A DNA stretch of 64,000 nt from Collimonas fungivorans (lineage in GTDB: Bacteria > Pseudomonadota > Gammaproteobacteria > Burkholderiales > Burkholderiaceae_D), in assembly GCF_001584145.1 (NCBI RefSeq), contig NZ_CP013232.1, positions 2,232,001 through 2,296,000 of the forward strand, read 5' to 3'. A model generated the notes under the pieces. That model was not told where the DNA came from, ran no database searches, and saw only the letters and a list, made by a program, of their open reading frames with translations. Numbering within the stretch: the first letter of the stretch is position 1; each line of letters begins with the position of its first letter. The translations under genes and the position numbers were made by a program. Below are positions 30,800-48,622 of the stretch, piece by piece.

Positions 30800-32212
30800 C
30801 TAAGCGCGGTTCCTGAAAAACAACGTATCGCCAAGCCAGACCGCAATCATCGTGACTCCCATCAACGGGAAGATGATGCCGAGCAGCGCCATGTAGCCTT
30901 TCCAGCGTGTGATCGACGGCGGCGGCTGCATCACGCGCTTTGGCGCGCCGATCGAATTTTGTGGACGGCGCTTCCACCACATGATGAATCCGGTCGCGGC
31001 CATGCCCAGCAGCGTCAATGAAATGGCGGCGCAGATCAGCTGGTTGGCGAGGCCGAAATACTCTCCCATATGCAAGGCAACGCCGAGCGAAACCAGCTTG
31101 GAGACCGGGTTGTACTCGGAAAAACGCATGTCCTTCATGATCTTGCCGCTGTACTGGTCGATGTGCAGCGTGCGCTGCTGGTCCAGGTCGGAACGGACGA
31201 ATTCCCCTGCGCCGGGCGCATACGAGGCGGTGAACACATCGGAACTCTTGCCGGGCAGGACCAGCTGGTAGGTCTGCATGCCGTTGTGTGCGGCGATCGC
31301 TACCACCTGGTCGATGGCCAGGCGCCGTTGCGGCATGTCGTGTGACATGGGCACCATGGTGGCGCCGACTGCCCACGGGACGTTGGCTAGCGGCAGGTCC
31401 TGCATTTTCATGCCGGGCATGTCTGCCATCGAGGCGTGCGCGTCTGCATCATGGACATGGGTTTCCTTCGCTGCTGCCTTTGGCGCCGCCGCCCAGGTAA
31501 CCACTGCCTGGAAGTTCTTGCCCCAGAAACTGGACCACGGCAAGCCGCTCATGATGAAGAACACCGCGCCTATCGAGACCCAGATGCCGACCACCAGGTG
31601 CAACTCGCGCCAGACTGCCCGGCCGCGCAGGCTGAGTCGCGGCAGCAGCGTGCCCCACACTGAAAACTGCTTGCGCGGCCACCAGAGCGCAATGCCGGTG
31701 CCGACCATGACCAGGGTCCAGCAGGCCGCCAGTTCCATCAGCCAGCCGCCCCATTTGCCCAGCAGCAGGTCGCGGTGGATTTGCCGCACTTGTTTCATCA
31801 GACGGTGCTCAACGCTGAGCGTGCCCAGCACCTGGCCTGTGTAGGGATTGACATAGACGCTGCTGCTGTCGCCGGAAGCCAGGCGGAATACTGCTTCGGT
31901 GCTGCGCCTCGGGTCCTGGCTGACAGTGATCGAGCTTGGCTTGGCATCCGGTGGCAGCGCGCCGGCGGCGATGCCGAGCAGCTTGTCGTAACCCAGCCGG
32001 GCCTGGGTGCTGGCGGGCACGAACAGCTTGTCGCCGTAGAGAGCGCTTTCTATCTGCGGCTTGAAGACATAGATGGTGCCGGTGATCGCCAGTACGATCA
32101 GGAAAGGCATCACGAACAGGCCGGCATAAAAATGCCAGCGCCACAGGATGCGGTAATTGCGCGACGAAACTGAGCTCGTTTCATCAGGCGCGTTTTGCTG
32201 AATTGTCTGCAT
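30800..32212 (-). CDS. PepSY-domain transmembrane protein (PiuB-like) with His/Met-rich insert
   Basis: A 470-residue inner-membrane protein with four to five helices and periplasmic PepSY domains. Helix one follows NYRILWRWHFYAGLFVMPF, and HRDLLLGKWGGWLMEL, LWWPRK and MWWKRRP are typical of the PepSY_TM family that accompanies siderophore or metal receptors and is thought to act as a ferric reductase. Between helices, near residues 251-275, lies a segment with HVHDADAHASM and MPGMKM, a histidine/methionine pattern reminiscent of copper-binding loops. It is 30 bp downstream of a TonB-dependent receptor gene and behind a DUF2946 gene, so the three probably form a metal-uptake operon. Which metal is unproven. 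Confidence 0.88.
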   Translation of the reverse strand: MQTIQQNAPDETSSVSSRNYRILWRWHFYAGLFVMPFLIVLAITGTIYVFKPQIESALYGDKLFVPASTQARLGYDKLLGIAAGALPPDAKPSSITVSQDPRRSTEAVFRLASGDSSSVYVNPYTGQVLGTLSVEHRLMKQVRQIHRDLLLGKWGGWLMELAACWTLVMVGTGIALWWPRKQFSVWGTLLPRLSLRGRAVWRELHLVVGIWVSIGAVFFIMSGLPWSSFWGKNFQAVVTWAAAPKAAAKETHVHDADAHASMADMPGMKMQDLPLANVPWAVGATMVPMSHDMPQRRLAIDQVVAIAAHNGMQTYQLVLPGKSSDVFTASYAPGAGEFVRSDLDQQRTLHIDQYSGKIMKDMRFSEYNPVSKLVSLGVALHMGEYFGLANQLICAAISLTLLGMAATGFIMWWKRRPQNSIGAPKRVMQPPPSITRWKGYMALLGIIFPLMGVTMIAVWLGDTLFFRNRA

Positions 32213-32242
32213 GACTGTTCCTTGCTAAAATTTTTGCAGCGT

Positions 32243-34603
32243 TTACAAACTGACTTTGGCTTCCAGGTAGAAGGTCCGGCCTGGATAGGGGTAGTAGACG
32301 TAGTAGCGCTTGTCGGTCAGGTTGTCGATGCCGATTCCCAGCTCCGTGTTCCTGGTCGGCTTGAAGGTCAGCTTGGTGTCGAACACCAGGAAGGAGCTGG
32401 TGCCGCCGAAGGTGTCGGGGTTGGTGTCGGTATTGGTCAGCGTGTTGTACTGCCGCCCCGAATAACGCCCCGCCAGCATCACGGTGGCCTGGTCATTGAC
32501 GTGATAGCTGCCGACCAGGTTGCTGCGCCACAGCGGGATGCGATAGAAATTCTTGCCGACGGTCGCCGGGTTCTTGCTGTTTTCCAGGATGATCGACCTG
32601 GTATAGCCGACGCTGGCGCTCAGGTCCAGTCCGCGCAGGAACACATCTTCGCCGGAATAGCTGAGCTCGATTCCGCGCGAGCGCACCCGGTCTATGTTCT
32701 GGATGCTGGTGACGTTGGGGAACACCGTGGTGTTGGTCTGGCTGAACAAGGTGTTCTTCACATCGTCTTCAAACAGCGACATGCGCAGCATGCCGTTGAA
32801 TTGCGACCATTCCGCGCTCAATTCTTTCGCCAGGTCGTTTTCCGGTTTCAGGTTGGGGTCGTTGTTGACCAGCGTCGACCCGGTCAGGCTGCCCTGGAAC
32901 AGCTCGCTGACAGTCGGGAATCGGTAGGCGCGGCCGGTGGAAAAGCGCAATGTCAGGTCGGAAGTCGCCTGGTAGGACAGCGCCGCCTTCGGTGACCAAT
33001 AGGACAGGCTGCGGCTGTCGTAACTCTTGCTGTAATGCTGGGCCGCGGCGCTGGTGGCGCGTGCGCCGTCGTAGGCGCGCCAGTCCTCGTAACGCAGGCC
33101 GTAGGTCAGTTTCCACAGCTGGTTCAGTTGCCAGGCATCCTGGGCAAACAGGGCCTGGGTTTCGGTCTTGCCGGCGAATGCGTTGTTGAAGCCGCTCGCG
33201 TCGTTGCTGCGCCAGTTGCTCAGGTTGTAGGTGGTGTTTTCCAGGAAATAATTGTCGTAGTGATAGCCGAGGGTCGGCCAATGGCTGCCGGCGGCGACGG
33301 TTACCGGTTTGTAGTCGGCTACCAGGTCCAGGGTTTTCCAGCCGGAGCCGTCGCCGTAGGTGGCGACGCCGCTCAGGTTGCTGGCCAGCCCGCTGCTGGC
33401 GGAGCGGGAGATGCTTTTCGAGACGTCGAAATACGATGCGATCGCCGAGTAGTTCCAGCCGCTGGCATGGCGGGTTTTCAGCGTCAGGCCGTATAGCTGG
33501 TTTTCGCTTTCGCTGGCTGCCGGCGCAAAGAACGACGCCGGCAGGTTGTACTGGTAGCCGCCGATATTGACCAGGCCCGAATACACCGGATTGCCGTTGG
33601 CGTCGCGCAGGAAGGTCTGGGTGCTGTTGCTCACCTGCTGGCGCCAGTAGCCGAAGGTAAAGCCGGCTTGCAGGGTCGGCGTGATGTCGTAGGCGGCCTT
33701 GAACTTGAACTGGTCCTGCACCGCACGCTCGGCGCCTTCGGCATTGACGCCGAAGATGGTGGCGGGGGCGCCGTTCGGATCGGTATATTGGTAGGCGCCG
33801 GTCACCGGGATCGCGGCAGCGCCAGCCGCTTGCCCGGAGCGCGGCTGGCTGGCATACACAAACGGCTGGCCGGCGTTGCTGAGATGGTCGATGCCGAGCA
33901 GGAAGGAGAGGTCGCCGACCTTGTTGCCGATCGCCGCAGTGCTCTTGTTGCCGTCGAAATGGCCGTCGACGCCGAACAGGCTGAACTGCTGGCTGAATAC
34001 CTGGGCCTTGAACATCGCTTCCAGCCTGGTCGGCATCTTGGTGGTGATCGCTACCGTGGCACCCATCGAATTGCCGGGGTAGAGGGCAGAGAAGGGGCCG
34101 TAGACCACATCCACCTGTGCGATGTCTTCCGGGAATACCATGGACCAGCGCGGCGGGAAGCTGTGGGTATTGCCGAGGAAATTGCTGAGCAGCAGGCCGT
34201 CGGCATACACCAGGCCGCGCGCGGTCTGCGAAGTGCCGTTGCCGCGCACTGAAATGGTGGCGTTCTCGTCACCGATAAAACGTTTGCGGACCGCCATGTT
34301 GGGCATGTACTTCAAGGCGTCTTCGGTATTGATGACGTTGAGGTTTTCCAGTTGCGCGGCGGTGATCCGTTCGCTGCTGGCTGGCAGGTTGGGATCGAGC
34401 ACCCGCTTTTCCCGGGTTCCCGTGACAAACACCTCGGGCACTGCATGGATATCTTCATCCGCCGCCCACGCGCTTTGCGAGAGCACGGGCAGGGCCAGCA
34501 TGACGGCCAAGGACGATGTCTGGCGTAAAAAAGACGGCAACTGATGTGGCAACAGGTAGCGGCGCGATGAAACATTCCTAGTTTGCGCGAGCAAATCAAG
34601 CAT
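32243..34603 (-). CDS. TonB-dependent outer membrane receptor
   Basis: A 786-residue outer-membrane transporter from ATG 34603. A signal peptide (SLAVMLALPVLSQSAWA) precedes the plug domain, which starts with a TonB-box-like VPEVFVTGTRE and contains ATISVRGNGTSQTARGLVYADG and VDVVYGPFSALYPGNSMGA. The barrel shows receptor hallmarks such as RFSTGRAYRFPTVSELFQG and NDPNLKPE. The substrate cannot be read from the sequence. The pairing with PepSY_TM and DUF2946 proteins suggests a metal or metallophore. The upstream region carries a 13-bp dyad at 34623-34635. The frame extends 28 codons upstream without family support. Confidence 0.92.
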   Translation of the reverse strand: MLDLLAQTRNVSSRRYLLPHQLPSFLRQTSSLAVMLALPVLSQSAWAADEDIHAVPEVFVTGTREKRVLDPNLPASSERITAAQLENLNVINTEDALKYMPNMAVRKRFIGDENATISVRGNGTSQTARGLVYADGLLLSNFLGNTHSFPPRWSMVFPEDIAQVDVVYGPFSALYPGNSMGATVAITTKMPTRLEAMFKAQVFSQQFSLFGVDGHFDGNKSTAAIGNKVGDLSFLLGIDHLSNAGQPFVYASQPRSGQAAGAAAIPVTGAYQYTDPNGAPATIFGVNAEGAERAVQDQFKFKAAYDITPTLQAGFTFGYWRQQVSNSTQTFLRDANGNPVYSGLVNIGGYQYNLPASFFAPAASESENQLYGLTLKTRHASGWNYSAIASYFDVSKSISRSASSGLASNLSGVATYGDGSGWKTLDLVADYKPVTVAAGSHWPTLGYHYDNYFLENTTYNLSNWRSNDASGFNNAFAGKTETQALFAQDAWQLNQLWKLTYGLRYEDWRAYDGARATSAAAQHYSKSYDSRSLSYWSPKAALSYQATSDLTLRFSTGRAYRFPTVSELFQGSLTGSTLVNNDPNLKPENDLAKELSAEWSQFNGMLRMSLFEDDVKNTLFSQTNTTVFPNVTSIQNIDRVRSRGIELSYSGEDVFLRGLDLSASVGYTRSIILENSKNPATVGKNFYRIPLWRSNLVGSYHVNDQATVMLAGRYSGRQYNTLTNTDTNPDTFGGTSSFLVFDTKLTFKPTRNTELGIGIDNLTDKRYYVYYPYPGRTFYLEAKVSL

Positions 34604-34622
34604 AAAAAAATTCCCATGGACA

Positions 34623-34635
34623 GACGATAATCGTC
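34623..34635. promoter_or_regulatory. Dyad upstream of the TonB receptor
   Basis: GACGATAATCGTC is a 6-1-6 dyad located 20 bp before the receptor start codon. It contains a GATAAT half-site similar to Fur boxes but is not a good match to the full consensus. It may be an operator or chance. Confidence 0.3.
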
Positions 34636-34703
34636 CCCGGATTGCAAGTGCGATCGGGGATAGGCGGCGCTGGAAGTTATTTCTCAAGCGCCGGCAATGA
34701 CAA

Positions 34704-35099
34704 TCAGGAGAGAGCCGAGGGTGGGTCTAGCGGATGGGTTTGCCCGCGGAACGGGCGTGGCGGGATGTAGTCGTAAAGCAGCGGGACGGCATGGGTGACA
34801 CTGGCCGCAATGTTGGGCAGCAGCCCGAAAGCAGCTGTCGGCGGCGGGCTGTTGGCCAGTAAAGTACAGTAGCCGCAGGCATTCCAGTGGTCGGCATGCG
34901 GCGCGGAAGATTTGCCGCTGTCGCCCGGATCGGCGCTGACCAGTCCGGCCGCGGTGCAGATCTCGCCGTGTATTTCTCCGTATCGCTGTATCGCCCCCGC
35001 CGCCTTGAGCGACTGCGAAACCGTCGGCATGAGGATGCCCAGCCAGATGGCAAACAGGCAGGTCCAGACCACAAGTTTTTGACGGCGGATACGTAACAT
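34704..35099 (-). CDS. DUF2946 family protein
   Basis: A 131-residue protein from ATG 35099. A hydrophobic N-terminal segment (VVWTCLFAIWLGILMPTV) is a signal or anchor. The conserved part is ICTAAG, HADHWNACGYCTLLA, typical of DUF2946 with its Cys/His cluster (H..C..CTLL), a likely metal-binding site. DUF2946 genes are frequently seen next to TonB receptors and PepSY proteins; the function is unknown. It is the first gene of the presumed operon with the receptor (about 100 bp downstream) and the PepSY protein. The longer frame from 35150 is not needed. Confidence 0.8.
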   Translation of the reverse strand: MLRIRRQKLVVWTCLFAIWLGILMPTVSQSLKAAGAIQRYGEIHGEICTAAGLVSADPGDSGKSSAPHADHWNACGYCTLLANSPPPTAAFGLLPNIAASVTHAVPLLYDYIPPRPFRGQTHPLDPPSALS

Positions 35100-35288
35100 G
35101 GATGACTTACGGAGATGTAAGCATTGCGAAGACAGGATGAAACGGGCCAATTATATATGACGATGAGAGCCGCACAAAACCGTTATGCCAGGCAGTGTAT
35201 TTTTGTTAACTGTCGGTTCGGAAGCATCCAGATACCGGCAGCGCCGGTAAAACCGGAGCGGTTGCCAGATGATTGGAACTGTCCGCTT

Positions 35289-36203
35289 TCAAGCGGGCTG
35301 CACCTCCGGCTGGCTGGCCAGCACCGCGCTGCTGGCCGCTTGCTGCGCTTGTTTCATCTCGCTCAGCAGGCAATGCAGCATCTCGCTCGACAGTCCATGC
35401 AATACCAGGCGGTAGCCGGCGCCCAGGGTCGACATCGGCACCAGTGGATGCTTGTTATTCAGCAGCAGCAAATGCTGGGGAGAGTTGAGTATGGTGGCTG
35501 CATACACCGCCATGGTTTCATCCAGCTGCAGCGAGTTGGCGGCGCGCCAGAAATCGTTATCGGTCAGGAACAGCTGGTAGACCGGCGTGAAAATCTCGAT
35601 GGCGGTCTGCAAGTCGATGAAGTTGAGAGCACACTGCGGCATGGCCGCCAGCGCCAGCGGCGGTTCGCTGATCATGCTGAAGTCGACATCCTGCAGCGCT
35701 GCCAGGGTTTTGCCTTCGGCGCGCAGTTGCTGGTTGAGGCGGATCACGAAATTGAACAGGTTCAGGTCATGCTTGAGGAACAGTTCATCCCCCAGGTCGT
35801 CTATCGTTAGTGGCTTGAGCGGAGACAGGGCGACGCTGACCGGTGCATTGCGCTCGATGAATTCGATGATCTGGGCGCCAAGGTGGAAATGGCGCAGTAT
35901 CAGCCAGTTGGCCTCGGGCGAGACAAATCCTTTCAAGCCCCATACCAGCAGGCGATGCAGCGTTTTCGAGGCGGACCAGCGTTTCGGCAGGATCGTCTTC
36001 AGGATCTGGATCAGGATGATCATCAGCCGCGCCAGCGGCCGCACGAACGGCAGCAGGTACTGGCGCGAAGGCGACGCCAGGTCGTGCAGCCAGGCGCTCT
36101 TGACCGCATCCGGCAGCGGCGTGCTGCCATCCAGGTAGAGCGCCAGCCAGGGATTGGGATCGCGCGGATCGTGTGCGCGTTGCAGGAAATCGTCGCTTTG
36201 CAT
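35289..36203 (-). CDS. Unknown protein of a lipid operon (possibly DUF6999-like)
   Basis: A 304-residue protein that I do not recognise with certainty; it may belong to the DUF6999 group. No signal peptide is obvious. One moderately hydrophobic segment (RLMIILIQILKTILP, about residues 60-74) could be a membrane or membrane-associated helix. The N-terminus has HDPRDPNPWLALYLDG; the middle contains histidines (LRHFHLGAQIIEFIE) and acidic pairs (KHDLNLFNFVIRLN) that could bind a metal, but no catalytic motif is clear. It is the last gene of a tight four-gene operon, 16 bp behind the ketosynthase/oxidase fusion, and should act on the same lipid product or its transport. Confidence 0.7.
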   Translation of the reverse strand: MQSDDFLQRAHDPRDPNPWLALYLDGSTPLPDAVKSAWLHDLASPSRQYLLPFVRPLARLMIILIQILKTILPKRWSASKTLHRLLVWGLKGFVSPEANWLILRHFHLGAQIIEFIERNAPVSVALSPLKPLTIDDLGDELFLKHDLNLFNFVIRLNQQLRAEGKTLAALQDVDFSMISEPPLALAAMPQCALNFIDLQTAIEIFTPVYQLFLTDNDFWRAANSLQLDETMAVYAATILNSPQHLLLLNNKHPLVPMSTLGAGYRLVLHGLSSEMLHCLLSEMKQAQQAASSAVLASQPEVQPA

Positions 36204-36219
36204 GGTGTTGGCCCGGTGG

Positions 36220-38100
36220 TTAATCTTGTATGTGTTCCAGCTGCATCAGGTACAGCTGCGCGGTGCGCTTGGCCGTTGCGTAGATGGCCTCGGCTGCCTT
36301 GGGATCCAGCGCCAGCGTGATTTCTATCGCGGCCAGCCAGCGCGCCAGGTGGTGTTCGTCGTTGGCGCCATGGTATTCCAGGAAACGGAAGGCCTGCGGC
36401 GGCAACGCGACCTGCTGGCGCAGCAGCGGCAGCAGCGCCGGCACGATGCGTTGCCCGGTGCCTTCGATAATATAGATCGCGCCCAGCAGCCCGACCGGGT
36501 TAGGGCTGGATGCCAGGGTGTGCAGATAACTGTTGAGCGCCTCGCCGCCCGGATTGCGCTTGAGCGCAGCGAGCGGCAGTTCGCCGCCGGCGGCCTGGTA
36601 ATCCTGGTACAGGATCATGAAATCGTTCTGCTCTTCGCCGGCATGGGTGGTGATCAGCTGGCCGAGCGCGGCAAACTCGCCGTTGAGCGAGGCGACCGCT
36701 TCACGCATCCACAAACTGCCTTCCTTCACCTGCGGCACCCATTGCGCGGTCCAGTTGCGGTAGGCGGCGACGTCGAAACGGCCGCTCACCAGGCGATGGA
36801 TCACCGGGGTGCGCCAGGCTTGCGAACGGTAGTCTTGCCACAGGCTGGCCAGGCGCGTCAGCAGAGGCTGCAGCGGCAGCGGCGCAGCCTCGGGCTGGTG
36901 CGGCGCGGCTATCGCCGGCGTCGACGCAGCGGTGCTGCTGTCGCCTGCCGCCGCTGGCCGGGCGGATTCAGGCGCGTTCGCATCTTCCACCTCGAACAGC
37001 ATGTAGGCGGCAGTGATGCGGCCCGATTCCGGAATGAAGCAGAAAATCTTTTCTCCGGCGCGCAGCGTTTTTTCCTGCAGGAACTCGGCCAGCATGATGA
37101 AAATCGATGCGGCGCCGGTATTGCCGCGAGTGGCCAGGTTGCTGTACCAGCGTTCCGGCGGGATCGTCAGCCCGGCCTTTGCCAGCAGCTCTTCAACCAC
37201 CGGCATGAATTTGGCGGAAGAGTAGTGGCACAGGAAATGGTCAACCTCTTCGGACTTGATCCATCCTGCTTCCACCAGCTTGACGTATTCATGGATGCAG
37301 ACGTCGAACAGGTGCGGCAGCAGGCGGATGTCCTGGCGCAGCGACAGCGCGCCGGCCGCCTCGGCTTCGCTCGAGGAGGCAAAATCCAGGAACGATTTGC
37401 TGCGGTCTTCCGTCAGGCCGAGCTGCATGCAGACCGGATAGTCGCCGGAAAAACTTTTCTGGTGCACCCATTTCAGCTTGATGCGCAGGCCGTTGCGCGG
37501 CTGCGGCTGGCGGCTGAACAGCATGGCGCCGGCGCCGTCGGACAGCATCCAGCGCAAGAAATGGGCGTCGAAGTCGCTCTGGTAGCCGCGCGGCGCAAAG
37601 CGGCTGCGCTTGAACATGCGCGACGGCATTTCGGCAGCAACCGCCAGCGCCTGCCGGTGGCTGCCAAGTTCTATCGCCTGTGCGGCAAATTCTATCGCGC
37701 TGACGCCGGCCGCGCACACGCCCTGGCTGGACAGCGTTTGCATCGGCGGCGCGCCCAGCTCGCCCTGGATCATGTTGGCAAAACCGGGCATCAGGGCATC
37801 GCCGCCGGAAGAGCCGACGCTCAGCAGGGAAATCTGCTCGAGCGTGGTCTCGGTCTGCCGCAAGCAGTCGCGGATGGCGCTGGCCGCCAGCTGGGCATGG
37901 TTTTGCACAGTATTGCCTTCGGCATCGATGGCATAGTGCCGTGTCTGTATGCCATTCTCCGCCAGGATGCGTTGCTTGATGCGGCCCGAGATCCGGTTGA
38001 TGGGAGCGATGTAATGATCCATCTCGTCGTTGCCGACGGGCTCTCCGGGCATGTGGAATCCTGCGGCGGCGAGATACACGCGATTGAACTCAGTTGGCAT
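36220..38100 (-). CDS. DarB-like beta-ketoacyl synthase III fused to a haem-oxygenase-like di-metal oxidase
   Basis: A 626-residue two-domain fusion. Residues 1-370 are a FabH-fold ketosynthase with a full Cys-His-Asn triad: Cys129 (SSQGVCAAG), His292 (LCHYSS) and Asn327 (RGNTGAAS). The N-terminal pattern PGEPVxNDEM...RHYAID resembles StlD/DarB ketosynthases of dialkylresorcinol pathways. Residues about 372-408 are an Ala/Pro/Ser linker. Residues 410-626 resemble haem-oxygenase-like iron enzymes (PqqC/CADD/UndA type): Glu490 in HAGEEQND, Glu546 in IIEGTG, and His577, Asp581 and His584 in EYHGANDEHH give the H-x3-D-x2-H ligand pattern. The position usually held by the first-helix His appears to be Asp493. 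The gene overlaps the desaturase gene by 11 bp. It probably condenses acyl groups and oxidises or cleaves the product; the reaction is unknown. Confidence 0.85.
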   Translation of the reverse strand: MPTEFNRVYLAAAGFHMPGEPVGNDEMDHYIAPINRISGRIKQRILAENGIQTRHYAIDAEGNTVQNHAQLAASAIRDCLRQTETTLEQISLLSVGSSGGDALMPGFANMIQGELGAPPMQTLSSQGVCAAGVSAIEFAAQAIELGSHRQALAVAAEMPSRMFKRSRFAPRGYQSDFDAHFLRWMLSDGAGAMLFSRQPQPRNGLRIKLKWVHQKSFSGDYPVCMQLGLTEDRSKSFLDFASSSEAEAAGALSLRQDIRLLPHLFDVCIHEYVKLVEAGWIKSEEVDHFLCHYSSAKFMPVVEELLAKAGLTIPPERWYSNLATRGNTGAASIFIMLAEFLQEKTLRAGEKIFCFIPESGRITAAYMLFEVEDANAPESARPAAAGDSSTAASTPAIAAPHQPEAAPLPLQPLLTRLASLWQDYRSQAWRTPVIHRLVSGRFDVAAYRNWTAQWVPQVKEGSLWMREAVASLNGEFAALGQLITTHAGEEQNDFMILYQDYQAAGGELPLAALKRNPGGEALNSYLHTLASSPNPVGLLGAIYIIEGTGQRIVPALLPLLRQQVALPPQAFRFLEYHGANDEHHLARWLAAIEITLALDPKAAEAIYATAKRTAQLYLMQLEHIQD

Positions 38101-38965
38101 TCTTTTTCCCTGGCGGCATAAGGCTGCGGCTGGACCAGCGCGACCACAGCAGACTCAAAATGAAAGTACGGAACATGTATGGCAGCAGCGGCCCTGCATT
38201 CAGTTGCGGGTGCAGCAAGTGGCGGTAGCGCTGGTGCAGGCCAGGCAAATGCGTCCAGTGCGCACGCGGATGGTGATGGTGGGCCGTATGGAAGCCGATA
38301 TTGAATAACAGCGGATTGACCAGGCCCTCGAAATTGCGGGCGAAGTCGGCCGGCGAGCGGCCGTCGGCATGGGCATGCTGCAGGTAATTGGTCGCCAGCA
38401 GCCAGTGCAAGCCATGCAGCTGCGGCAGCAGCACCAGCAGCAGGAATTTATGCCAGTCGAGCCAGCCTAGCAGTATCCACAGCAGCGCCACCGCGAAGTA
38501 TTGGCGCAGGAAATAATGAAATACGCCGGCGTGGCGCCGCCGCATCCGGAGCAGCCAGCGCCATATCAGGGGATACAGGACAAGCGCCGCCTGCAAGGGG
38601 TGCAGCAGATAACCGAGCAGATGGTTGGTGTCGCCGCCAAAACGATAGGTGCGCGCCACGTCCAGCGGGCCGTGGCGGTAGCGATGATGGTTGCCGTTGT
38701 GCGCCGGATAGAAGACGAAGGTGGGGTGGCCCTGCAACAGGGTGATCCAGAAGTCGGCGAGGCGATTGAGCCAGCGTCTGTCCCACATGCGCAAATGGGC
38801 GTGGTTGTGATGGATGACCCCTGTGCCCAAGGTCAGGAACAGCAGCAAGCCGTACAGCAGCATGTTAAGCAGCGATAGCTGCGGATGACGCCAGAGGTAG
38901 GCGACCAGCAGCGGCAAGGCAAGGATATATGCCAGGCTTTGCCAGTCGCTCCTGTTACGCAGCAT
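38090..38965 (-). CDS. Membrane fatty acid desaturase family enzyme
   Basis: A 291-residue membrane-bound non-haem di-iron enzyme. All three histidine boxes are present: HHNHAH (about residue 52), HNGNHH (about residue 89) and HTAHHHH (about residue 225), with paired hydrophobic helices between them. The family includes acyl-lipid desaturases, alkane hydroxylases and UndB-like decarboxylases. I place the start at ATG 38965: the open frame runs further upstream but there it is the antisense-like, Cys/Thr-rich shadow of the preceding gene, whereas 38965 gives a normal N-terminus. It overlaps the upstream hydroxylase gene and the downstream ketosynthase gene by 11 bp each, a sign of translational coupling. 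Confidence 0.88.
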   Translation of the reverse strand: MLRNRSDWQSLAYILALPLLVAYLWRHPQLSLLNMLLYGLLLFLTLGTGVIHHNHAHLRMWDRRWLNRLADFWITLLQGHPTFVFYPAHNGNHHRYRHGPLDVARTYRFGGDTNHLLGYLLHPLQAALVLYPLIWRWLLRMRRRHAGVFHYFLRQYFAVALLWILLGWLDWHKFLLLVLLPQLHGLHWLLATNYLQHAHADGRSPADFARNFEGLVNPLLFNIGFHTAHHHHPRAHWTHLPGLHQRYRHLLHPQLNAGPLLPYMFRTFILSLLWSRWSSRSLMPPGKKNAN

Positions 38966-39734
38966 TCTGCTTCTCGTCCGGTTTTGCGCCGCGGGCAATC
39001 CTGGCTTCCGCGGCATCGGGCGCCAGTTCGGTGGCAAACAGCCGATCCATGAACGGGAACATGAAGCCGTAGTTGCCGCGGTAGCAGGCGTGGTGCAGAT
39101 GATGGCGGCGCGCGCCGTTGAGCCACCAGCGATCGCGGTCGGCGTCGGGCAGGTAATCGTAGTTGGAGTGCCCGATGTTGTTGAATACGATGCTGAAGAC
39201 CGGCACGAAGGCCAGCGAGTAGATGCTGAAATCGTGCAGCAGCATGGGCAGCAGCAGTACATTACCCAGCATCATGGCTTCCAGCGGCGTGAAGCTGTAG
39301 CAGGTCCAGGGCGTGGTGACGACAGAGCGGTGGTGCGGCAGGTGGAAACGCTTCAGCCAGGACACATGCAGCAACCTGTGGCTGAGGTAAAAATGCACTT
39401 CGTTCCATACCACCATGAACAGGATTTCGAACCCGATCTGCCAGCCGGATGCCTGTTCGGCCAGCCTGGCCCAACCGAGTTGCAGCAAGCCCCAGGGGAA
39501 CACCATGCCGGTGCCGAACAGAAAGATGGTTACAGCGGATTCGCCTAGTTCGCGCCGCAGCTGCTGCGGCGCCAGCGGCCGCGGATCGAGCACCCGGCCA
39601 TAACCGAAGGCGGGCAGGATGCGGCGGCTGAGCAGCCAGTTGAGGCTGCCGAATACAAAATACAGGCAGGCGAAAAATACGACGCCAACGCCCATGATGG
39701 TGTACCACTGGCAAGTCAGGATGAAATCGCGCAT
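38955..39734 (-). CDS. Sterol desaturase/fatty acid hydroxylase family protein
   Basis: A 259-residue membrane enzyme with four hydrophobic helices. The family's histidine motifs are visible: HFYLSHRLLH (about residues 113-122), HLPHHRS (about 130-136) and HHLHHACYRGNYG (about 210-222), ligating a di-iron centre that hydroxylates or desaturates lipids. Bacteria rarely make sterols, so a fatty-acyl or isoprenoid substrate is likely. It is the first gene of the four-gene lipid operon. The start at ATG 39734 has no strong ribosome site; no better alternative is evident, though Met14 (39695) is possible. Confidence 0.87.
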   Translation of the reverse strand: MRDFILTCQWYTIMGVGVVFFACLYFVFGSLNWLLSRRILPAFGYGRVLDPRPLAPQQLRRELGESAVTIFLFGTGMVFPWGLLQLGWARLAEQASGWQIGFEILFMVVWNEVHFYLSHRLLHVSWLKRFHLPHHRSVVTTPWTCYSFTPLEAMMLGNVLLLPMLLHDFSIYSLAFVPVFSIVFNNIGHSNYDYLPDADRDRWWLNGARRHHLHHACYRGNYGFMFPFMDRLFATELAPDAAEARIARGAKPDEKQNAA

Positions 39735-40166
39735 GAGATTTTGGGGCTGGCTTTAGGAGCCGGTTCTTTTAATGATTGTCGCGAACGTATGTTGTCTCGA
39801 CGCAACCCTGAATTTCGCGATGATAGCATGTTGCCAACGACGCGCAGGGGGTGCGGGAACAATAAATATCACTGTAGCGCCGCCCCCTATTGGGCTAGCC
39901 GTTAAACAGAGATGACGGCAGGCTGACCAAGAATGTCACCTGCCTGACCGTGTTGGTCAGCGTTGCAGCATGCGTCATGCGCAAAATATCTTTCTAGTCC
40001 GCCCGGCAGCCATTGTGCGCGCGCGTAACGCACTGTTTCCCTGTTTTGCCGCGACGTGGTGGCACGATGTTTGCGATACATCGGCAAATCCGTGAACAGG
40101 CTTCATTCCGAAGCCTGGAGTACGGCGTGGCCTATGGTTCACGCATCTACCGCAAAGATTAAAACA
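39735..40166. other. Intergenic region between divergent genes, no gene found
   Basis: About 430 bp upstream of both the lipid operon (leftward) and the lipoprotein gene (rightward). A 61-codon frame on the minus strand (39902-40087) has no ribosome site or similarity and I discount it. Promoters for both flanking genes must lie here, but I recognise no specific operator. Confidence 0.4.
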
Positions 40167-41747
40167 ATGCCCTCAAAAATGCTTTCTCCGGCGCCGTCCC
40201 GCCGGATTCGTCCGCTCGCGCTGCCCTTGCTGCTTTCTCTGCCTCTGCTGCTTGCTGCCTGCGGCGGCGGTGGCGGCTCATCCGATTCTTCTGCCAGCCA
40301 GAATCCCCCTTCGAGCGCCGCGCCGGCCACCCCTCCTGGTGCACCGGCGGCGACGCCGCCGGCCACCGCAACACCGCCAGCTTCGGTGCCGGTCGCGGAT
40401 TTTAGTGTGACAACGAAAGTAATCGCCACTGGCGCAACGGGCAAGGTCTTCGGCCTCAAGGCCAATTTTTTCAATGACGGCCTGGTCCCGCCCAGCCCGA
40501 TGTCCAACTATGGCTTTCCCAACCCGGTCATCCCCGTGGTCAATGCGGATGGCAGCCTGGATGTAGCTTGGCTGGATTACTCTGGCGCGACCCAGTCGGC
40601 GGTGTCCGGCCTGGCAGCGCCTGGCACGATCAGTATCACCCATGTCAATCCTGACCTGAGCGCCGGCGCGACAACGGCGACCAGCCTGCGCTCCTACAAG
40701 CTGCTAGGCTTTACCAAGGATGCCAGCGGCGCCTTCTATGTAGCCTATAACGTCGACCATCCGTACCGGAATGCGGTCGCCGGCGACGTCAATAACGTCA
40801 ATGGCAATGAACTGCATATCGCCAAGGCGTCCAGCGCCAGTTTTGCAGCGAAAGCCTGGGATACCCTGGTGTTCGGCAACCAGGACAACAGCAAGGACAA
40901 GAGCAAGGGCAACCCCGGCACGGCAGGCGGCGGCGCCTTGAGCTATGACGCGGTGAACCAGAAGCTGGTGCTGTATGTGGCGCACCAGATGGCCTGGGGC
41001 GATAACGGCACGCGTCACCAGGCCGGCTATTTCCGCTACTTCGATGGCATTACCGGAAACGTCGTGACGCCTGCCGGCAATGCGATGAACATGGGATCGG
41101 CCTGGTTCTATTCGCACAATTTCAACCAGCGCCTGCTGATCGACAACGGCATCGCCTACACGCTGGCGCATGGCGACGCCTATCCGCGTCAGCTGGGCTT
41201 TTCGGCGCGGACCTTGGCCGCCTACCTGGGCAACGACAGCACTGTTTTCGACAAACCTTACCAGGCCATCGACGGCGCCGAGGGCGACAACACCACCAAC
41301 GCCGAGACCGGCCAATTCATCAAGCTGAGCAGCGGCGATTTTGCGATGGTCCACGCGACATCGCAAGGCCGTGCGGCTCGCGACGTGCGGATCAGCCTGG
41401 TCAGCGGCACGGATGGCAGCGTGCGCTCCAGCGCCTGGCTGACCAGCAACGCCGCCAACACGCAAGCCATCATGCCTAAGCTGGAAGCTTACGGCAGCGG
41501 CTTTGTAGTTTCTTATGGTCTGTGGAATTCAAGCAACCGCACCAACCGCGCGATCGAGTGGCATTTCATGCAGCTCGACGCCAGCCTGAATCCGCTGCAG
41601 CTTTCGAATCCGGTGCCCGGCATCGAATTCGTCGCCGATCTGCCGCTGCTGCGCTTCACTGGAGGTCCTAACTCCGGTCGCGTGGGCTGGGTTTCCGGCA
41701 ATGACCAGGGGACCTTGAGCGTGAACCTGGTTCCCGCCGCACACTAA
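40167..41747 (+). CDS. Large putative lipoprotein, function unknown
   Basis: A 526-residue protein from ATG 40167. The signal PLALPLLLSLPLLLAACGGGGG ends with the lipobox LAAC, followed by a low-complexity Gly/Ser/Pro/Ala spacer (to about residue 75), a common design for surface-exposed lipoproteins. The remainder has beta-strand-rich repeats with aspartates and asparagines (VVNADGSLDVAWLDYSG, RISLVSGTDGSVRSS), suggesting a beta-propeller, but I recognise no family. The frame upstream of 40167 runs into the promoter region and lacks a signal. It is divergent from the lipid operon, so a shared regulatory region is possible. Confidence 0.72.
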   Translation: MPSKMLSPAPSRRIRPLALPLLLSLPLLLAACGGGGGSSDSSASQNPPSSAAPATPPGAPAATPPATATPPASVPVADFSVTTKVIATGATGKVFGLKANFFNDGLVPPSPMSNYGFPNPVIPVVNADGSLDVAWLDYSGATQSAVSGLAAPGTISITHVNPDLSAGATTATSLRSYKLLGFTKDASGAFYVAYNVDHPYRNAVAGDVNNVNGNELHIAKASSASFAAKAWDTLVFGNQDNSKDKSKGNPGTAGGGALSYDAVNQKLVLYVAHQMAWGDNGTRHQAGYFRYFDGITGNVVTPAGNAMNMGSAWFYSHNFNQRLLIDNGIAYTLAHGDAYPRQLGFSARTLAAYLGNDSTVFDKPYQAIDGAEGDNTTNAETGQFIKLSSGDFAMVHATSQGRAARDVRISLVSGTDGSVRSSAWLTSNAANTQAIMPKLEAYGSGFVVSYGLWNSSNRTNRAIEWHFMQLDASLNPLQLSNPVPGIEFVADLPLLRFTGGPNSGRVGWVSGNDQGTLSVNLVPAAH

Positions 41748-41763
41748 GCAGACAGTAGGCAAC

Positions 41764-41788
41764 GGGACAGCACAAACCGTGCTGTTCC
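41764..41788. terminator. Weak hairpin after the lipoprotein gene
   Basis: GGGACAGCAC pairs with GTGCTGTTCC around a five-base loop, 17 bp after the lipoprotein stop. There is no T tract, so it may be a weak or Rho-assisted terminator. Confidence 0.35.
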
Positions 41789-41836
41789 ACTCCGCTGCCT
41801 AAGCCGCTGCGGCGATTCCGCCGCCAGGAGCAGCAC

Positions 41837-42526
41837 TTAATTGTAGATGTGCTGCGGCTCTGGCATGGCGGTCAGCTGCTGCAATGAAGCTATCAGGTCG
41901 ACAAAACGCTGCCCCTGCACCGTGACGTGCTGGCGCAGCAGGTCGGCCGCCAGTTCGCTGTCGCCGGCGATGATGGCTTGCACCACGCCGTCGTGCTCCT
42001 GGTACGACACTTTCAGGCGGTCGCGCACCCGCAGCTGCAGCCGCCGGTAAGGCCGCAGCCGGCGCTGCAGCGACTGCGCCTGGGCCGCCAGGAAGGCGTT
42101 ATGGCTGCCTTCGTAGATGGCGCCATGGAACGCTTCGTTCATGTAGAAATAAGTATCGGGATCCTGCGCGTCGCGCGCTTCCATGCATGCCTGGTGCGCC
42201 GCCAGCAGGCTGGCATGTTCCTCGCCGGACATCCGGCGCGCCGCCAGGCGGCCGCACATGGCTTCCAGTTCTGCCATCACCTCAAACATTTCCACCAGCT
42301 GCCGCGGGCCGATTTCGGCAACCACGGTGCCGCGCCGCGGCCGCGTCACCACGATGCCCATTGAAGCCAGCTGGATCAATGCCTCCCGCACGGGCGTGCG
42401 GGAAACCCCGAACTTGATGGCCAGGTCGGTTTCATCAAGATGCTGGCCTGGACGAAACTCACCAACCGCGATCATCTCTTCGATGGTTTCGCGCAGCGAT
42501 TCCGAGCGATTTTTTGTCGTGAGCAT
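41837..42526 (-). CDS. GntR family regulator (FCD domain), MdcY-like
   Basis: A 229-residue repressor from ATG 42526. The winged helix reads LDETDLAIKFGVSRTPVREALIQLASMGIV (about residues 29-58 in part), and the C-terminal helical FCD domain carries the family's metal/ligand residues (ELEAMCGRLAARR, NEAFHGAIYEGSHN). It is divergent from the TRAP-malonate operon, the position of MdcY in other malonate clusters. A site resembling the MdcY palindrome (ATTGTATACAAT, as I recall from Acinetobacter work) lies between them. The natural effector is presumably malonate or malonyl-CoA. Confidence 0.85.
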   Translation of the reverse strand: MLTTKNRSESLRETIEEMIAVGEFRPGQHLDETDLAIKFGVSRTPVREALIQLASMGIVVTRPRRGTVVAEIGPRQLVEMFEVMAELEAMCGRLAARRMSGEEHASLLAAHQACMEARDAQDPDTYFYMNEAFHGAIYEGSHNAFLAAQAQSLQRRLRPYRRLQLRVRDRLKVSYQEHDGVVQAIIAGDSELAADLLRQHVTVQGQRFVDLIASLQQLTAMPEPQHIYN

Positions 42527-42619
42527 AATTTGGCCGTTTCTGGGATTATGTGTATTTGTGTATTCGAGATTTGATTGTAAGGCGTATTTATTCGTTGACA
42601 TGAAAATGTTTTATGGAAT

Positions 42620-42633
42620 ATTGTGTATACAAG
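42620..42633. promoter_or_regulatory. Candidate GntR (MdcY-type) operator
   Basis: ATTGTGTATACAAG contains the symmetric core TGTATACA and differs little from the GntR/FCD palindrome ATTGTATACAAT. It lies about 100 bp before the TRAP binding-protein start and about 95 bp before the GntR start, where an operator for both would sit. Confidence 0.5.
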
Positions 42634-42730
42634 GAAATGAAAAAAGAATACATAGCATCTATCTTCAGCAATAACCGCATGAAAAGTAGCTAAAACTGTA
42701 TCGATAGTTTTTCCAACACAGGGAGGGGAT

Positions 42731-43750
42731 ATGTCTTTAATCAGCAGGAGGACGGTGCTGGGCGCGCTTGCGAGCACACCGTTCTGGTCCATGTCGTCAG
42801 TCTGGGCGCAATCGGGCGCCTTGAAAATTTCCCACCAGTTTCCCGGCGGTACCATCAGCGAAGGCGACTTCCGCGACCGCCTGACCCGCATGTTCGCCGC
42901 TGAAGTCGGCAAACGCACCAAGGGTAGCCTGAAATTCGAAATCTATCCTGGCTCTTCCCTGATGAAGACCAATTCCCAATTCTCTGCATTGCGCAAAGGC
43001 GCCCTGGATTTTTCCCTGGTGCCGCTCAACTACGCCGGCGGCGAAGTGCCGGAAGTTAACATCGGCCTGATGCCTGGCCTGGTGACATCGTATGAGCAGG
43101 GCGCGGCCTGGAAGAATTCGGAAGTCGGCAAGGAATTGTCGCGCATCCTGCTGGAAAAGGGCGTGATCATTGTCAGCTGGATCTGGCAGGCCGGCGGCGT
43201 GGCTTCGCGCGGCAAGCCGATCATCGATCCGTCCGACGCCAAGGGCCTGAAGGTACGCGGCGGTTCGCGCGAGATGGACCTGATCCTGAAAGAAGCCGGC
43301 GCCGCCGTGGTGACCCTGCCTTCCAATGAAATCTATGCGGCGATGCAGACCGGCGCGATGGATGCCGCCATGACGTCGTCGACCTCGCTGATCTCCTTCC
43401 GCCTGGAAGAAGTTTCCAAGAGCCTGACCAGCGGCCGCGACAAGGCCTACTGGTACATGCTGGAGCCTTTGATGATTTCGAAGGCGACCTTCGACCGCCT
43501 CACCAAAGAGCAGCAGGTGGCGGTAATGGAGGTCGGCGCCGAGATGGAGAAGTTCGCCACCAACGCCGCCCGGCTGGACGATTCCGGCGTCGCCGCGGTG
43601 TACCAGAAGGCCGGCGCCAAAGTGGTCGACCTGAACGCGGCGACTGTCAAGAAGTGGCAGGACATTGCCCGCAACACAGCGTGGAAGGACTACGCTGCCA
43701 GGAACGACAACTGCGCCAAACTGCTGAAACTGGCTGAGAAACTGCTATGA
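42731..43750 (+). CDS. TRAP transporter periplasmic binding protein (DctP family)
   Basis: A 339-residue solute receptor with a signal peptide (RRTVLGALASTPFWSMSSVWA). It matches the DctP family: the entry LKISHQFPGG, MKTNSQFSALRKGALDF, and GLKVRGGSREMDLILKEAGA with the conserved arginine that binds the carboxylate. In this operon the ligand is probably malonate. GGGAGGGG provides a strong ribosome site. Its TGA overlaps the ATG of the DctQ gene (ATGA). Confidence 0.93.
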   Translation: MSLISRRTVLGALASTPFWSMSSVWAQSGALKISHQFPGGTISEGDFRDRLTRMFAAEVGKRTKGSLKFEIYPGSSLMKTNSQFSALRKGALDFSLVPLNYAGGEVPEVNIGLMPGLVTSYEQGAAWKNSEVGKELSRILLEKGVIIVSWIWQAGGVASRGKPIIDPSDAKGLKVRGGSREMDLILKEAGAAVVTLPSNEIYAAMQTGAMDAAMTSSTSLISFRLEEVSKSLTSGRDKAYWYMLEPLMISKATFDRLTKEQQVAVMEVGAEMEKFATNAARLDDSGVAAVYQKAGAKVVDLNAATVKKWQDIARNTAWKDYAARNDNCAKLLKLAEKLL

Positions 43751-44340
43751 GCCACGGCTTCGACCCGAAGCCAAACGCCGGACCCGCCTTGCCTGCCATG
43801 CCGGACAATCCGGTAGTGGCAGTCCTGGCCGGTGTCCTCGAACGCTTCCATAAACTCGCCCTGTATCTTTCCATGACAGCACTGATGCTGACGTCGCTGA
43901 TCATGACGTACTCGGTGGTGGCGCGCTATTTTTTCCATGTCCCCACCGACTGGCAGGACGACGCCACGGTGTTCATGCTGGTCGGCGTGATCTTCCTCTG
44001 CGCCGGCTACGCCCAGTCGTCGCGCGGCCATATCGGTATCGAAGCCTTGTCTTCGATACTGCCGGCCGGGGTGAACGCGGTGCGGCTGCTGCTGGTCGAC
44101 CTGGTGTCTTTCCTGTTTTGCGGATTCTTTTCCTGGAAATCGTGGACCCTGTTCCATGAAGCCTGGTCGGAAGGCCAGACCACCTCATCCACGTTTGCGC
44201 CGCCGCTGTGGATTCCTTATTCGCTGATGGCGCTGGGCATGACCGTGCTCACCTTGCAGCTGCTGGCCCAAGTGCTGGCGCGCCTGACCGACCGCAGCAA
44301 ACCACGCAGTACACCTGCCCACACTGTCCCGGGAGAGTAA
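43747..44340 (+). CDS. TRAP transporter small permease (DctQ family)
   Basis: A 197-residue inner-membrane protein with four hydrophobic helices, the usual size for DctQ. Characteristic segments are VVARYFFHVPTDWQDDATVFMLVGVIFLCAGY (in part) and RGHIGIEAL. It pairs with the large permease to form the sodium-driven membrane part of the transporter. It overlaps its neighbours at both ends (ATGA with the receptor gene, TAATG with the DctM gene). Confidence 0.9.
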   Translation: MSHGFDPKPNAGPALPAMPDNPVVAVLAGVLERFHKLALYLSMTALMLTSLIMTYSVVARYFFHVPTDWQDDATVFMLVGVIFLCAGYAQSSRGHIGIEALSSILPAGVNAVRLLLVDLVSFLFCGFFSWKSWTLFHEAWSEGQTTSSTFAPPLWIPYSLMALGMTVLTLQLLAQVLARLTDRSKPRSTPAHTVPGE

Positions 44341-45689
44341 TGAGTCCGCTTGCCTTAGGTGCCTTGTATGGCATCGTCACGATTGTCGTGATGTGTTCCG
44401 GCATGCCGATAGCGTTTGCGCTCGGTGTAGTCGCGACCAGTTTCATGTACTTCTTCATGCCGGCCTCATCGCTGGATACCATCACGCAAAACGTCTACGA
44501 GGAAATCGCCTCGGTGACCCTGCTGTCGATTCCCTTGTTCATCCTGAAAGGGGCGGCCATCGGCAGATCGCCGGCCGGGCGCGACCTGTATTCGGCGATC
44601 CATGCCTGGCTGAGCAAGGTGCCGGGCGGGCTGGGCATCGCCAACGTGTTTGCCTGCGCCTTGTTTGCGGCGATGGCCGGTTCTTCGCCTGCAACCTGTT
44701 CGGCGATCGGGTCCGCCGGCATCCCGGAAATGCGGCGGCGCGGTTATTCGCCCGGATTCGCCGCCGGCATCATCGCTGCCGGCGGCACGCTGGGCATCTT
44801 GCTGCCGCCATCGATCACCATGATCCTGTACGCGGTGGCGTCGGAACAATCGCTGGGCCGGCTGTTCCTGGCCGGCGTCGGGCCGGGGGTGTTGCTGGTG
44901 ATCCTGTTCGCCGGTTATGCCGTGTACCGGGCCCGCAAGGAATACCGCCTGGCGCATGAAATCTACAGCCAGGGCGGCATCAAGTCTGCCTACCTTGACG
45001 ACGAGCATTTCACCTTCGTGCAAAAGGTCGAGATGCTGCCGCGCGTGCTGCCTTTCCTGATCTTGCTGATCGGCGTCATGATCGCCTTGTACGGCGGCTT
45101 CGCCACGCCGTCCGAAACCGCCGGCCTGGGCGCCTTGCTGGCGATCGTGCTGATCGCAGTGGTGTACCGCATGTGGCGGCCGCGCGACCTGATGCCGTTC
45201 CTGAATTCGACCATCAAGGAATCCTGCATGCTGCTGCTGATCATCGGCATGTCCCTGCTGTATTCCTATGTCATGAGCTACCTGCATATCAGCCAGTCGG
45301 CGGCGCAATGGGTAGTCGCCTTGCATCTGTCGAAATGGCTGCTGCTGGCGGTGATCCTGCTGATGGTGATCGTGCTCGGTTTCTTTTTGCCGCCGGTATC
45401 CATCATCCTGATGACCGCGCCTATCATCTTGCCGCCGCTGCGCGAAGCCGGCTTCGACCTGATCTGGTTCGGTGTGGTGATGACGGTGGTGATGGAAATG
45501 GGGCTGATCCATCCGCCGGTAGGACTGAACCTGTTTGTCATCAAGAACATTGCGCCCGACATACCCTTGTCGGACGTGATCAAGGGTACTTTGCCGTTCC
45601 TGCTGCTGATGTTCCTGGCGATCATCCTGCTTTGCCTGTTTCCAGGCATCGTCACCGGCCTGCCTGATTTGCTGATGGGAGCCCGATGA
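44340..45689 (+). CDS. TRAP transporter large permease (DctM family)
   Basis: A 449-residue protein with about twelve helices, the ion-coupling permease. Family motifs are FILKGAAIGRS, SPATCSAIGSAGIPEMRRRGYSPGFAAG in part, GGTLGILLPPSITMI, and FATPSETAGLGAL. I start at ATG 44340, overlapping the DctQ stop (TAATG); the frame from 44208 lies within dctQ. The final TGA overlaps mdcA's ATG, tying malonate uptake directly to its decarboxylase. Confidence 0.93.
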   Translation: MSPLALGALYGIVTIVVMCSGMPIAFALGVVATSFMYFFMPASSLDTITQNVYEEIASVTLLSIPLFILKGAAIGRSPAGRDLYSAIHAWLSKVPGGLGIANVFACALFAAMAGSSPATCSAIGSAGIPEMRRRGYSPGFAAGIIAAGGTLGILLPPSITMILYAVASEQSLGRLFLAGVGPGVLLVILFAGYAVYRARKEYRLAHEIYSQGGIKSAYLDDEHFTFVQKVEMLPRVLPFLILLIGVMIALYGGFATPSETAGLGALLAIVLIAVVYRMWRPRDLMPFLNSTIKESCMLLLIIGMSLLYSYVMSYLHISQSAAQWVVALHLSKWLLLAVILLMVIVLGFFLPPVSIILMTAPIILPPLREAGFDLIWFGVVMTVVMEMGLIHPPVGLNLFVIKNIAPDIPLSDVIKGTLPFLLLMFLAIILLCLFPGIVTGLPDLLMGAR

Positions 45690-47350: not shown

Positions 47351-47405
47351 CAGCAAGAAGCAACAAAAAACAGCAAGAAACAATCAGAAGAGCAAGGAAC
47401 TGTTG

Positions 47406-47720
47406 ATGGAAACCTTGAATTTTCGTTTTGAGCATGGCCGGCGCCTTTTGCCGCCGCAGGCCCAGCTGTCCGGCGTAGTCAGCTCGGGCAACCTGGAAGT
47501 GCTGGTCGAAGCGGTGGCGCTGAACGGCGCTTGCACGATTGAAATCAAGACTGCGGCGCGCGGCTTCGGCGCCATCTGGGAAGCGGTACTGGGCGATTTC
47601 CAGCAGCGCTGGCAACTGGCCGACGCTCGTATCGCCATCAACGACATGGGCGCCACGCCGGCGGTAGTCAGCCTGCGCCTGGACCAGGCGCTGCAAGCCA
47701 TGACAGGGAGCGCGCCATGA
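47406..47720 (+). CDS. mdcC: Malonate decarboxylase acyl carrier protein (delta subunit)
   Basis: A 104-residue carrier protein bearing the 2'-(5''-phosphoribosyl)-3'-dephospho-CoA group. The attachment serine lies in VSSGNLEVLVE (family VGSGDLEVL). Conserved segments ARGFGAIWEAVLGDFQQRW and INDMGATPAVVSLRL follow. The start is ATG 47406, preceded by AAGGAAC; a TTG lies one codon earlier. Its TGA overlaps the mdcD ATG. The prosthetic group is made by MdcB and attached by MdcG, both encoded downstream. Confidence 0.95.
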   Translation: METLNFRFEHGRRLLPPQAQLSGVVSSGNLEVLVEAVALNGACTIEIKTAARGFGAIWEAVLGDFQQRWQLADARIAINDMGATPAVVSLRLDQALQAMTGSAP

Positions 47721-48622
47721 ACAGCTACCTGGAAGCGAATGCCCGCGAGCGCCTGGCTGCGGTGCTGGACGCCGGCAGTTTTTACGAATTCCTGCCGCCC
47801 GCGCTGAAAATCGTCAGCCCGCACCTGGCGCAGCTGGATGCGCCGGTATCGTTCGACGATGGCGTGGCGATCGGCCAAGGGCGACTGTTTGGCGAATCCG
47901 TGTATGTGGCGGCGCAAGAGGGCGGTTTCATGGGCGGCGCGGTGGGCGAGGTGCATGGCGCCAAGCTCACCGGCTTGCTGCTGCGTGCGGTGCGCGAGCG
48001 GCCGTTTGCGGTAGTGCTGCTGCTGGAAAGCGGTGGCGTGCGGCTGCATGAAGCCAACGCCGGCCTGATCGCAGTGTCGGAAGTGATGCGCGCCTTGCTT
48101 GAGGTGCGCGCCGCCGGCATTCCTGTGATTGTGCTGATCGGCGGCTCCAACGGTTGTTTCGGTGGCATGGGCATCGTCGCCCGCTGCGCCAATGCGATCG
48201 TGATGTCGGAAGAAGGGCGGCTGGCGATGTCCGGGCCGGAAGTGGTTGAAACCGCCAACGGCGTCGAAGAATTCGATTCGCGCGACCGGGCGCTGGTATG
48301 GCGCACCACCGGCGGCAAACACCGCTACTTGCTGGGCGATTGCCAGATACTGGTGGCCGACGATAGCAGCGCGTTCCGCCAGGCCGCTTTCGACCTGGCG
48401 CGGGAATGCCATGCCCACGCTGGCGGCATCGGCTTGACGCTGGCGACGCTGGAAGCAGAGCAGCAGTTGCTGCAGGATCGCATCGACAGTTTTGGCCAGG
48501 CCGTCGATCCGCTCGATATCTGGGCCAGCATCGGCGTGGCCGACGCCGCCCGCCTGCCGATGCTGGAAGCCGAGGCTTTTGTCGCCGCTACCGCTGCACT
48601 GCGCCTGGGAGCACAAACATGA
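47717..48622 (+). CDS. mdcD: Malonate decarboxylase beta subunit
   Basis: A 301-residue carboxyltransferase-fold protein. With MdcE it decarboxylates malonyl-ACP to acetyl-ACP. Crotonase-like segments include QEGGFMGGAVGEVHGAKLTGLL, LLESGGVRLHEANAGL and GGSNGCFGGMGIVA (each in part). It overlaps mdcC and mdcE by ATGA junctions, so the subunits should be made in matched amounts. Confidence 0.95.
   Translation: MNSYLEANARERLAAVLDAGSFYEFLPPALKIVSPHLAQLDAPVSFDDGVAIGQGRLFGESVYVAAQEGGFMGGAVGEVHGAKLTGLLLRAVRERPFAVVLLLESGGVRLHEANAGLIAVSEVMRALLEVRAAGIPVIVLIGGSNGCFGGMGIVARCANAIVMSEEGRLAMSGPEVVETANGVEEFDSRDRALVWRTTGGKHRYLLGDCQILVADDSSAFRQAAFDLARECHAHAGGIGLTLATLEAEQQLLQDRIDSFGQAVDPLDIWASIGVADAARLPMLEAEAFVAATAALRLGAQT

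Follow-up and report, generated by a model that had tools for sequence, protein, structure and literature searches.

A recurrent operon with a DarB-like ketosynthase fused to a haem-oxygenase-like oxidase in Collimonas fungivorans

Introduction

In the synthesis of dialkylresorcinols, according to the available part of PMC3949708, DarB acts as the cyclase and DarA as the aromatase. The locus considered here, found in a 64,000-nucleotide stretch of the Collimonas fungivorans genome (hereafter the window), encodes a ketosynthase whose closest known relatives are StlD and DarB, joined in one polypeptide with an oxidase domain and set in an operon with three further genes. What might such an operon make, and is it simply a dialkylresorcinol cluster of unusual layout? 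A first-pass annotation of the DNA had held that it is not a standard cluster of that kind, noting the absence of a "DarA-type cyclase", a slip of wording given the roles above. A literature search, which judged titles and the beginnings of abstracts and had most subscription journals outside its scope, turned up no publication on this gene set among the papers listed, nor any on DUF6999, the family of the last gene. The words ketosynthase, fused and fusion do not occur in the text of the oxidase review PMC13108848, and the Collimonas genome paper contains none of the words ketosynthase, desaturase and resorcinol.

The operon and its surroundings

The four genes occupy positions 35289-39734 of the window, all on the minus strand, in a genome that consists of one contig of 5.6 Mb. 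The first encodes a membrane hydroxylase of the PF04116 type (HYD; 38955-39734, 259 aa, E 3.8e-23) and the second a membrane desaturase of the PF00487 type (DES; 38090-38965, 291 aa, E 1.2e-21), the start of which is taken as the ATG at 38965, the mechanical open reading frame beginning upstream at 39262. The third gene (36220-38100, 626 aa) encodes the fusion protein, in which a StlD/DarB-like ketosynthase (about residues 1-375; PF08541, E 2e-9, and PF08545, E 9.6e-6) is followed by a haem-oxygenase-like oxidase domain (about residues 400-626, at 36220-36903; PF14518, E 9e-12). HYD and DES overlap by 11 bp (38955-38965), as do DES and the fusion gene (38090-38100), and a gap of 16 bp (36204-36219) precedes the DUF6999 gene (35289-36203, 304 aa; PF22523, E 2e-129). 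These coordinates bear out the arrangement described in the first-pass annotation. The last protein, for which it had given no function, belongs to a recognized family.

Genes for an acyl carrier protein, a ligase or an exporter are absent from the operon. Base composition gives no sign of transfer (GC 0.621 in the operon vs 0.614 in the window), and the nearest named relatives of the fusion gene are from Collimonas, at 98%, 94% and 94% identity. Genes for a TRAP transporter (DctM), a malonate decarboxylase alpha subunit and a CitG-like protein lie near the operon, at 44208-51072. Elsewhere the window holds an autotransporter bearing a GDSL lipase domain (24145-26076) and two very large adjacent minus-strand reading frames (54524-63333), the first with GH94 domains.

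Distribution and gene order

Of 7997 candidates scored in a search with the fusion protein, 5194 are relatives at E 0.001; each of the best 120 of these spans the whole query and bears PF14518. When each species was represented by a single genome, a relative was encoded in 140 of 149 pattern stretches, and the 80 best of these served for the comparison of gene order. The order hydroxylase, desaturase, fusion, DUF6999 recurs on one strand in 73 of these 80 loci, which are the closest relatives and do not sample distant ones, and no locus has a contrary order; ketosynthase, oxidase and DUF6999 lie on one strand in 77. The seven remaining loci lack one or more parts at 75% coverage: two meet a contig end (L005, L021), two have partial matches (L012, L071), and in three one gene match is missing (L051, L078, L084). 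Such recurrence is far beyond chance, and the search across genomes that the first-pass annotation had proposed thus finds a conserved neighbourhood.

Sampling by DUF6999 gives a wider view. The family is present in 11 of 397 sampled Pseudomonadota genomes, in 13 of 300 from the order of the window and 6 of 60 near relatives, and in 2 of 119, 5 of 59 and 5 of 60 genomes of three other families, samples that overlap one another. Among 28 DUF6999 neighbourhoods, at least five of which repeat records among the 80 (L104, L105, L107, L108, L127), ketosynthase, oxidase and DUF6999 are consecutive on one strand in 26; of the two exceptions, one has DUF6999 alone near an integrase-core gene (L100) and the other is cut by a contig end (L139). 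Clustering of neighbour genes was left unused, being confounded by spurious reading frames in high-GC DNA.

Around this trio the arrangement varies. Three loci have only one of the two membrane enzymes (L106, L128, L137), and three have none near the core by similarity (L099, L125, L138). In Pseudoalteromonas (L098) and five other loci (L101, L133-L136) the ketosynthase and the oxidase are split, with a gene for a 185-residue membrane protein, m185, in front. Named relatives of the DUF6999 profile of L099/L100 include Sphingomonas, Sphingobium and Novosphingobium, and for this reason L099 and L125 are here called sphingomonad-like. Ketosynthase, oxidase and DUF6999 stay together, also where the first two are separate genes, and as a core they have a patchy but wide distribution. 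The constancy of the trio amid these arrangements points to a three-protein core with exchangeable membrane enzymes. The earlier idea of a single pathway unit therefore stands insofar as there is one conserved operon, but the hydroxylase and desaturase are variable partners and the core comprises three proteins only.

Inheritance and an apparent insertion spot

Pairwise distances for ketosynthase, oxidase and DUF6999 correlate closely over 103 loci (r 0.91-0.97), and those of the ketosynthase correlate with those of the hydroxylase and the desaturase over 87 loci (r 0.89). None of 999 shuffles reached the observed values, for which shared species history accounts in part.

Within Collimonas, DUF6999 is present in 4 of 15 genomes. 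In a fifth (G399) the right flank is on a contig end, with coordinates that fit L005, which has the operon without DUF6999. The other ten have neither a DUF6999 match nor a cut operon, absence being judged by DUF6999; in eight of them the left flank matches up to about window position 35100, and the closest match to the right flank lies between 0.7 kb (G405) and 16.8 kb (G409) further on. The DNA at 39900-43800 is matched in 14 of the 15 genomes. Positions 35151-41850, between a DUF2946 gene and a GntR regulator, thus appear to be an insertion spot in Collimonas, and exchange of the operon between lineages is likely.

The operon is bordered at 30800-35150 by a Collimonas module of PepSY-TM, TonB receptor and DUF2946 genes. 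These adjoin it in the Collimonas loci L006, L007 and L103-L105 (two of which repeat two others) and are without a match in the remaining loci of the set of 80. They were considered as part of the system and set aside, since the same DNA is present in eight of the ten Collimonas genomes that have neither a DUF6999 match nor a cut operon.

The membrane enzymes

The enzyme types first assigned to HYD and DES hold up, both in the Pfam matches and in the conservation of the His boxes that PF04116 hydroxylases and PF00487 desaturases share with them. In HYD, boxes within H114-H135 and H211-H215 are kept in 92-94 of 94 rows, and in DES the residues H53/H57, H89/H93/H94 and H226/H229/H230 occur in every row that reaches them (92 or 93), the reference being included in both cases. 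Neither protein has an NCBIfam match or a solved relative at E 0.1. Judging from motifs, the operon may encode three di-iron oxygenases.

The His- and Glu-rich m185 (L098:9621-10178) has no Pfam or NCBIfam match. Twelve residues (D26, H30, E36, E43, H47, H81, E82, H86, D88, E102, H104, H106) are invariant in all six sequences, making it a candidate membrane metalloenzyme, new to the families searched. A relationship to the desaturase was rejected, the match having a probability of 0.4%.

With a membrane desaturase and a hydroxylase at hand, the operon could alter the fatty acids of membrane lipids: one chain would be extended, hydroxylated, desaturated and oxidised, and pass into phospholipid or lipid A. 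Two neighbours are in keeping with this idea. A diacylglycerol kinase gene follows DUF6999 in one 2.2-Mb genome of the family of the window, and in one sphingomonad-like genome DUF6999 is directly followed by a gene for a protein with MFS, acyltransferase and AMP-binding domains (L099:4697-8098), which we take to be LplT-Aas-like. Such neighbours are not conserved, however, and the second sphingomonad-like locus, L125, has no match to the LplT-Aas-like protein, which was on that ground rejected as a core partner. The ketosynthase is StlD-like and not FabH-like, and the patchy presence just described, in four Collimonas genomes and a fifth cut by a contig end, also argues against a role in membrane lipids, which we regard as unlikely.

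The ketosynthase and its separation from DarB

An ordinary dialkylresorcinol cluster is the reading that automatic mining would suggest, since "resorcinol" is the label it gives to DarB-like ketosynthases. StlD and DarB are indeed the nearest known enzymes, and the available parts of papers on Variovorax and Achromobacter report predicted "resorcinol" regions, one of them with DarB as core gene. The catalytic triad Cys129-His292-Asn327, recognized already at first pass, is present in all 106 aligned loci and in all seven DarB proteins examined. (In the head-to-head ketosynthases OleA and PpyS, by the accessible portion of PMC4578411, a catalytic Glu reaches into the partner monomer.) The seven DarB proteins have a Pro before the catalytic His; the fusion has C291 at that place.

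The window domain falls below both curated DarB cut-offs, scoring 338.7 bits with NF005293 (cut-off 450) and 273.1 with NF053539 (cut-off 550). The first of these profiles matches at 1e-60 in 14 of 299 genomes, seven above the cut-off (561-601 bits) and seven below (302-364 bits). All seven genomes with the lower scores carry DUF6999; a profile search of the Pseudomonadota sample found no DUF6999 match in the seven with the higher scores. Nor do the seven DarB loci, each about 4.1 kb, contain a match to the oxidase or to DUF6999. Caulobacter vibrioides, a laboratory model whose genome served as a control, has matches both to DUF6999 and to the DarB-like ketosynthase family.

A tree of 38 ketosynthases, in which 15 of the 35 inner branches are open, unites the seven DarB proteins with a Prevotella plasmid protein on a branch supported at 98/99 and free of any core-type sequence, so that the operon ketosynthase lies outside the DarB group. 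The window protein itself clusters with those of Deefgea, Iodobacter and Chitinibacter (98/94). Fused core-type ketosynthases require a single change in 100% of bootstrap trees, with support of 57/100 for a branch of their own, and the split ones require two. A Streptomyces plasmid ketosynthase sits in the same unresolved fork as the core-type sequences, and a single clade or origin of all the latter is on that account not shown. A Streptomyces plasmid cluster (L111:7703-15349) encodes a DarB-like ketosynthase, two acyl carrier proteins, a second ketosynthase, a P450 and a FAD monooxygenase.

In all seven DarB genomes a gene of about 305 codons adjoins the DarB gene. We take it for DarA by position alone, since the table of PMC3949708 (available part) has darA and darB as neighbours; its sequence matches no NCBIfam family, and no Pfam family over a cut-off. 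With it as query, no match was found in the genome of the window or in three other Collimonas genomes searched. It is missing from 24 of 27 DUF6999 genomes, and in the other three, a further point in favour of a dialkylresorcinol reading, it lies on other contigs. Thus, in place of the DarB and StlD arrangement, the ketosynthase here is fused or adjacent to an oxidase, with DUF6999 after it, and lacks the DarB neighbour. The missed cut-offs, the position outside the DarB group and the absence of this gene uphold the first-pass view that this is no standard dialkylresorcinol cluster. As to gene content that explanation is largely refuted, and it seems to us quite improbable.

The oxidase domain

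The assignment of the second domain to the haem-oxygenase-like oxidases, also made at first pass, agrees with its PF14518 score (45.6 bits vs a cut-off of 28.9) and with its H577-x3-D581-x2-H584 motif, kept in all 226 rows, which comprise 106 loci and 120 listed proteins that overlap, are not all independent and, split forms excepted, are near relatives throughout. H486, E490, D493 and E546 are likewise invariant in this set. UndA, CADD, BesC, SznF, AetD and FlcD share with the window domain PF14518 and the positions of the two Glu and the H-x3-D-x2-H residues. Unlike them, it has Asp for the second ligand His and, four residues ahead of the first Glu, an additional His, and in the lineage of the window it is tethered to a ketosynthase. 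Where the oxidase is a separate protein, PF14518 matches those of L099 and L101 but, at E 1, not that of L098, which is nonetheless 35% identical and keeps every motif residue.

The published ligand motif, E-H-E-H-(D/E)-H, begins with two variably spaced residues of helix 1 and fits about 85% of 150 analysed groups, about 9% being without strong prediction (PMC11363339, available part). The corresponding series in the window, E490-D493-E546-H577-D581-H584, departs from it, with Asp at the second place in 226/226 rows; in profile alignments D493 falls on a ligand His both of UndA and of 3dde. Among the aligned rows there is no conserved His after E490 on its helix and there is one four residues before it, so the predicted site would consist of two His and four carboxylates, or would draw a His from a shifted position. 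The accessible portion of PMC13108848 describes ligand sets in which three His are combined with three or with four carboxylates, as well as a variant with a single iron. In a structure model, helices span 408-622 and one is broken at 491-492; a kink at ligand residues is described, in the literature as available, for AetD, UndA and BesC. The fold of the oxidase family is a seven-helix bundle; a fold comparison of the whole fusion was filled by the ketosynthase domain. From the residues conserved, metal binding by the oxidase domain is predicted.

That the oxidase is UndA-like, cleaving the ketosynthase product to an alkene or shorter carbonyl in the manner of a fatty acid decarboxylase (the role of UndA in the part of PMC13108848 at hand), is very doubtful, as the two share a superfamily and a distant profile match (E 0.0025), but 3dde, whose name says no more than that it is a domain of unknown function and haem-oxygenase-like fold, matches better (1.4e-16), and the Asp at the second ligand position in every row means that reactivity may differ. 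The UndA likeness drawn at first pass thus survives as common superfamily membership, and is otherwise weak because the profile match is distant and a metal-ligand position differs. On a Citrobacter freundii plasmid (L112:3883-8049), genes for a protein named thermostable hemolysin, an AMP-binding protein, a haem-oxygenase-like oxidase and an SDR occur together, and in this oxidase the place of the core-family Asp is taken by His.

The DUF6999 protein

The third member of the core scores 430.9 bits with PF22523, against a cut-off of 27. Its AlphaFold2 model is all-helical (mean pLDDT 89.8), and a fold search with it gave no match. Thirteen residues (R47, N99, R104, H105, N119, H145, D146, D197, D228, N250, R265, H269, E274) are invariant in 206-207 aligned rows, repeats included, and we would guess that this mix of His and acidic residues might suit a metal site or acid-base catalysis.

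A proposed pathway

From these features we infer a possible function, held at somewhat short of even confidence: a small operon for biosynthesis that moves between lineages, with a core that joins acyl units and oxidises the product, DUF6999 for a third step and membrane enzymes for tailoring. Like DarB and StlD, the ketosynthase domain would join a pair of acyl thioesters, with a cyclohexane-1,3-dione or some related beta-dicarbonyl lipid as the result; it could instead extend one chain. The tethered oxidase would then use O2 on the joined product, standing where DarA stands in dialkylresorcinol synthesis, and DUF6999 would provide an obligate third step. At the membrane, hydroxylase and desaturase might put oxygen or double bonds into the alkyl chains, a task that other lineages would leave to other membrane enzymes or dispense with. 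The final product would be an oxidised lipid with a ring or ketones. Against this proposal count the lack of a carrier protein, ligase and exporter in the operon, the departure of the oxidase from the published ligand motif, the L098 oxidase without PF14518, and the three loci (L099, L125, L138) without a membrane enzyme match.

Implications

A broader and slightly more hesitant suggestion is that chain-joining lipid pathways include a distinct class, represented by this operon, where an oxidase of altered metal site and a DUF6999 protein of possibly new fold replace the DarA aromatase and lead to an undescribed class of lipid. The operon provides a ketosynthase that carries its own oxidase, the metal-ligand positions of which are unlike the published motif. 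Some of the regions labelled "resorcinol" by automatic mining may in fact be this operon. For DUF6999, the operon supplies a constant genomic partner and a role open to testing.
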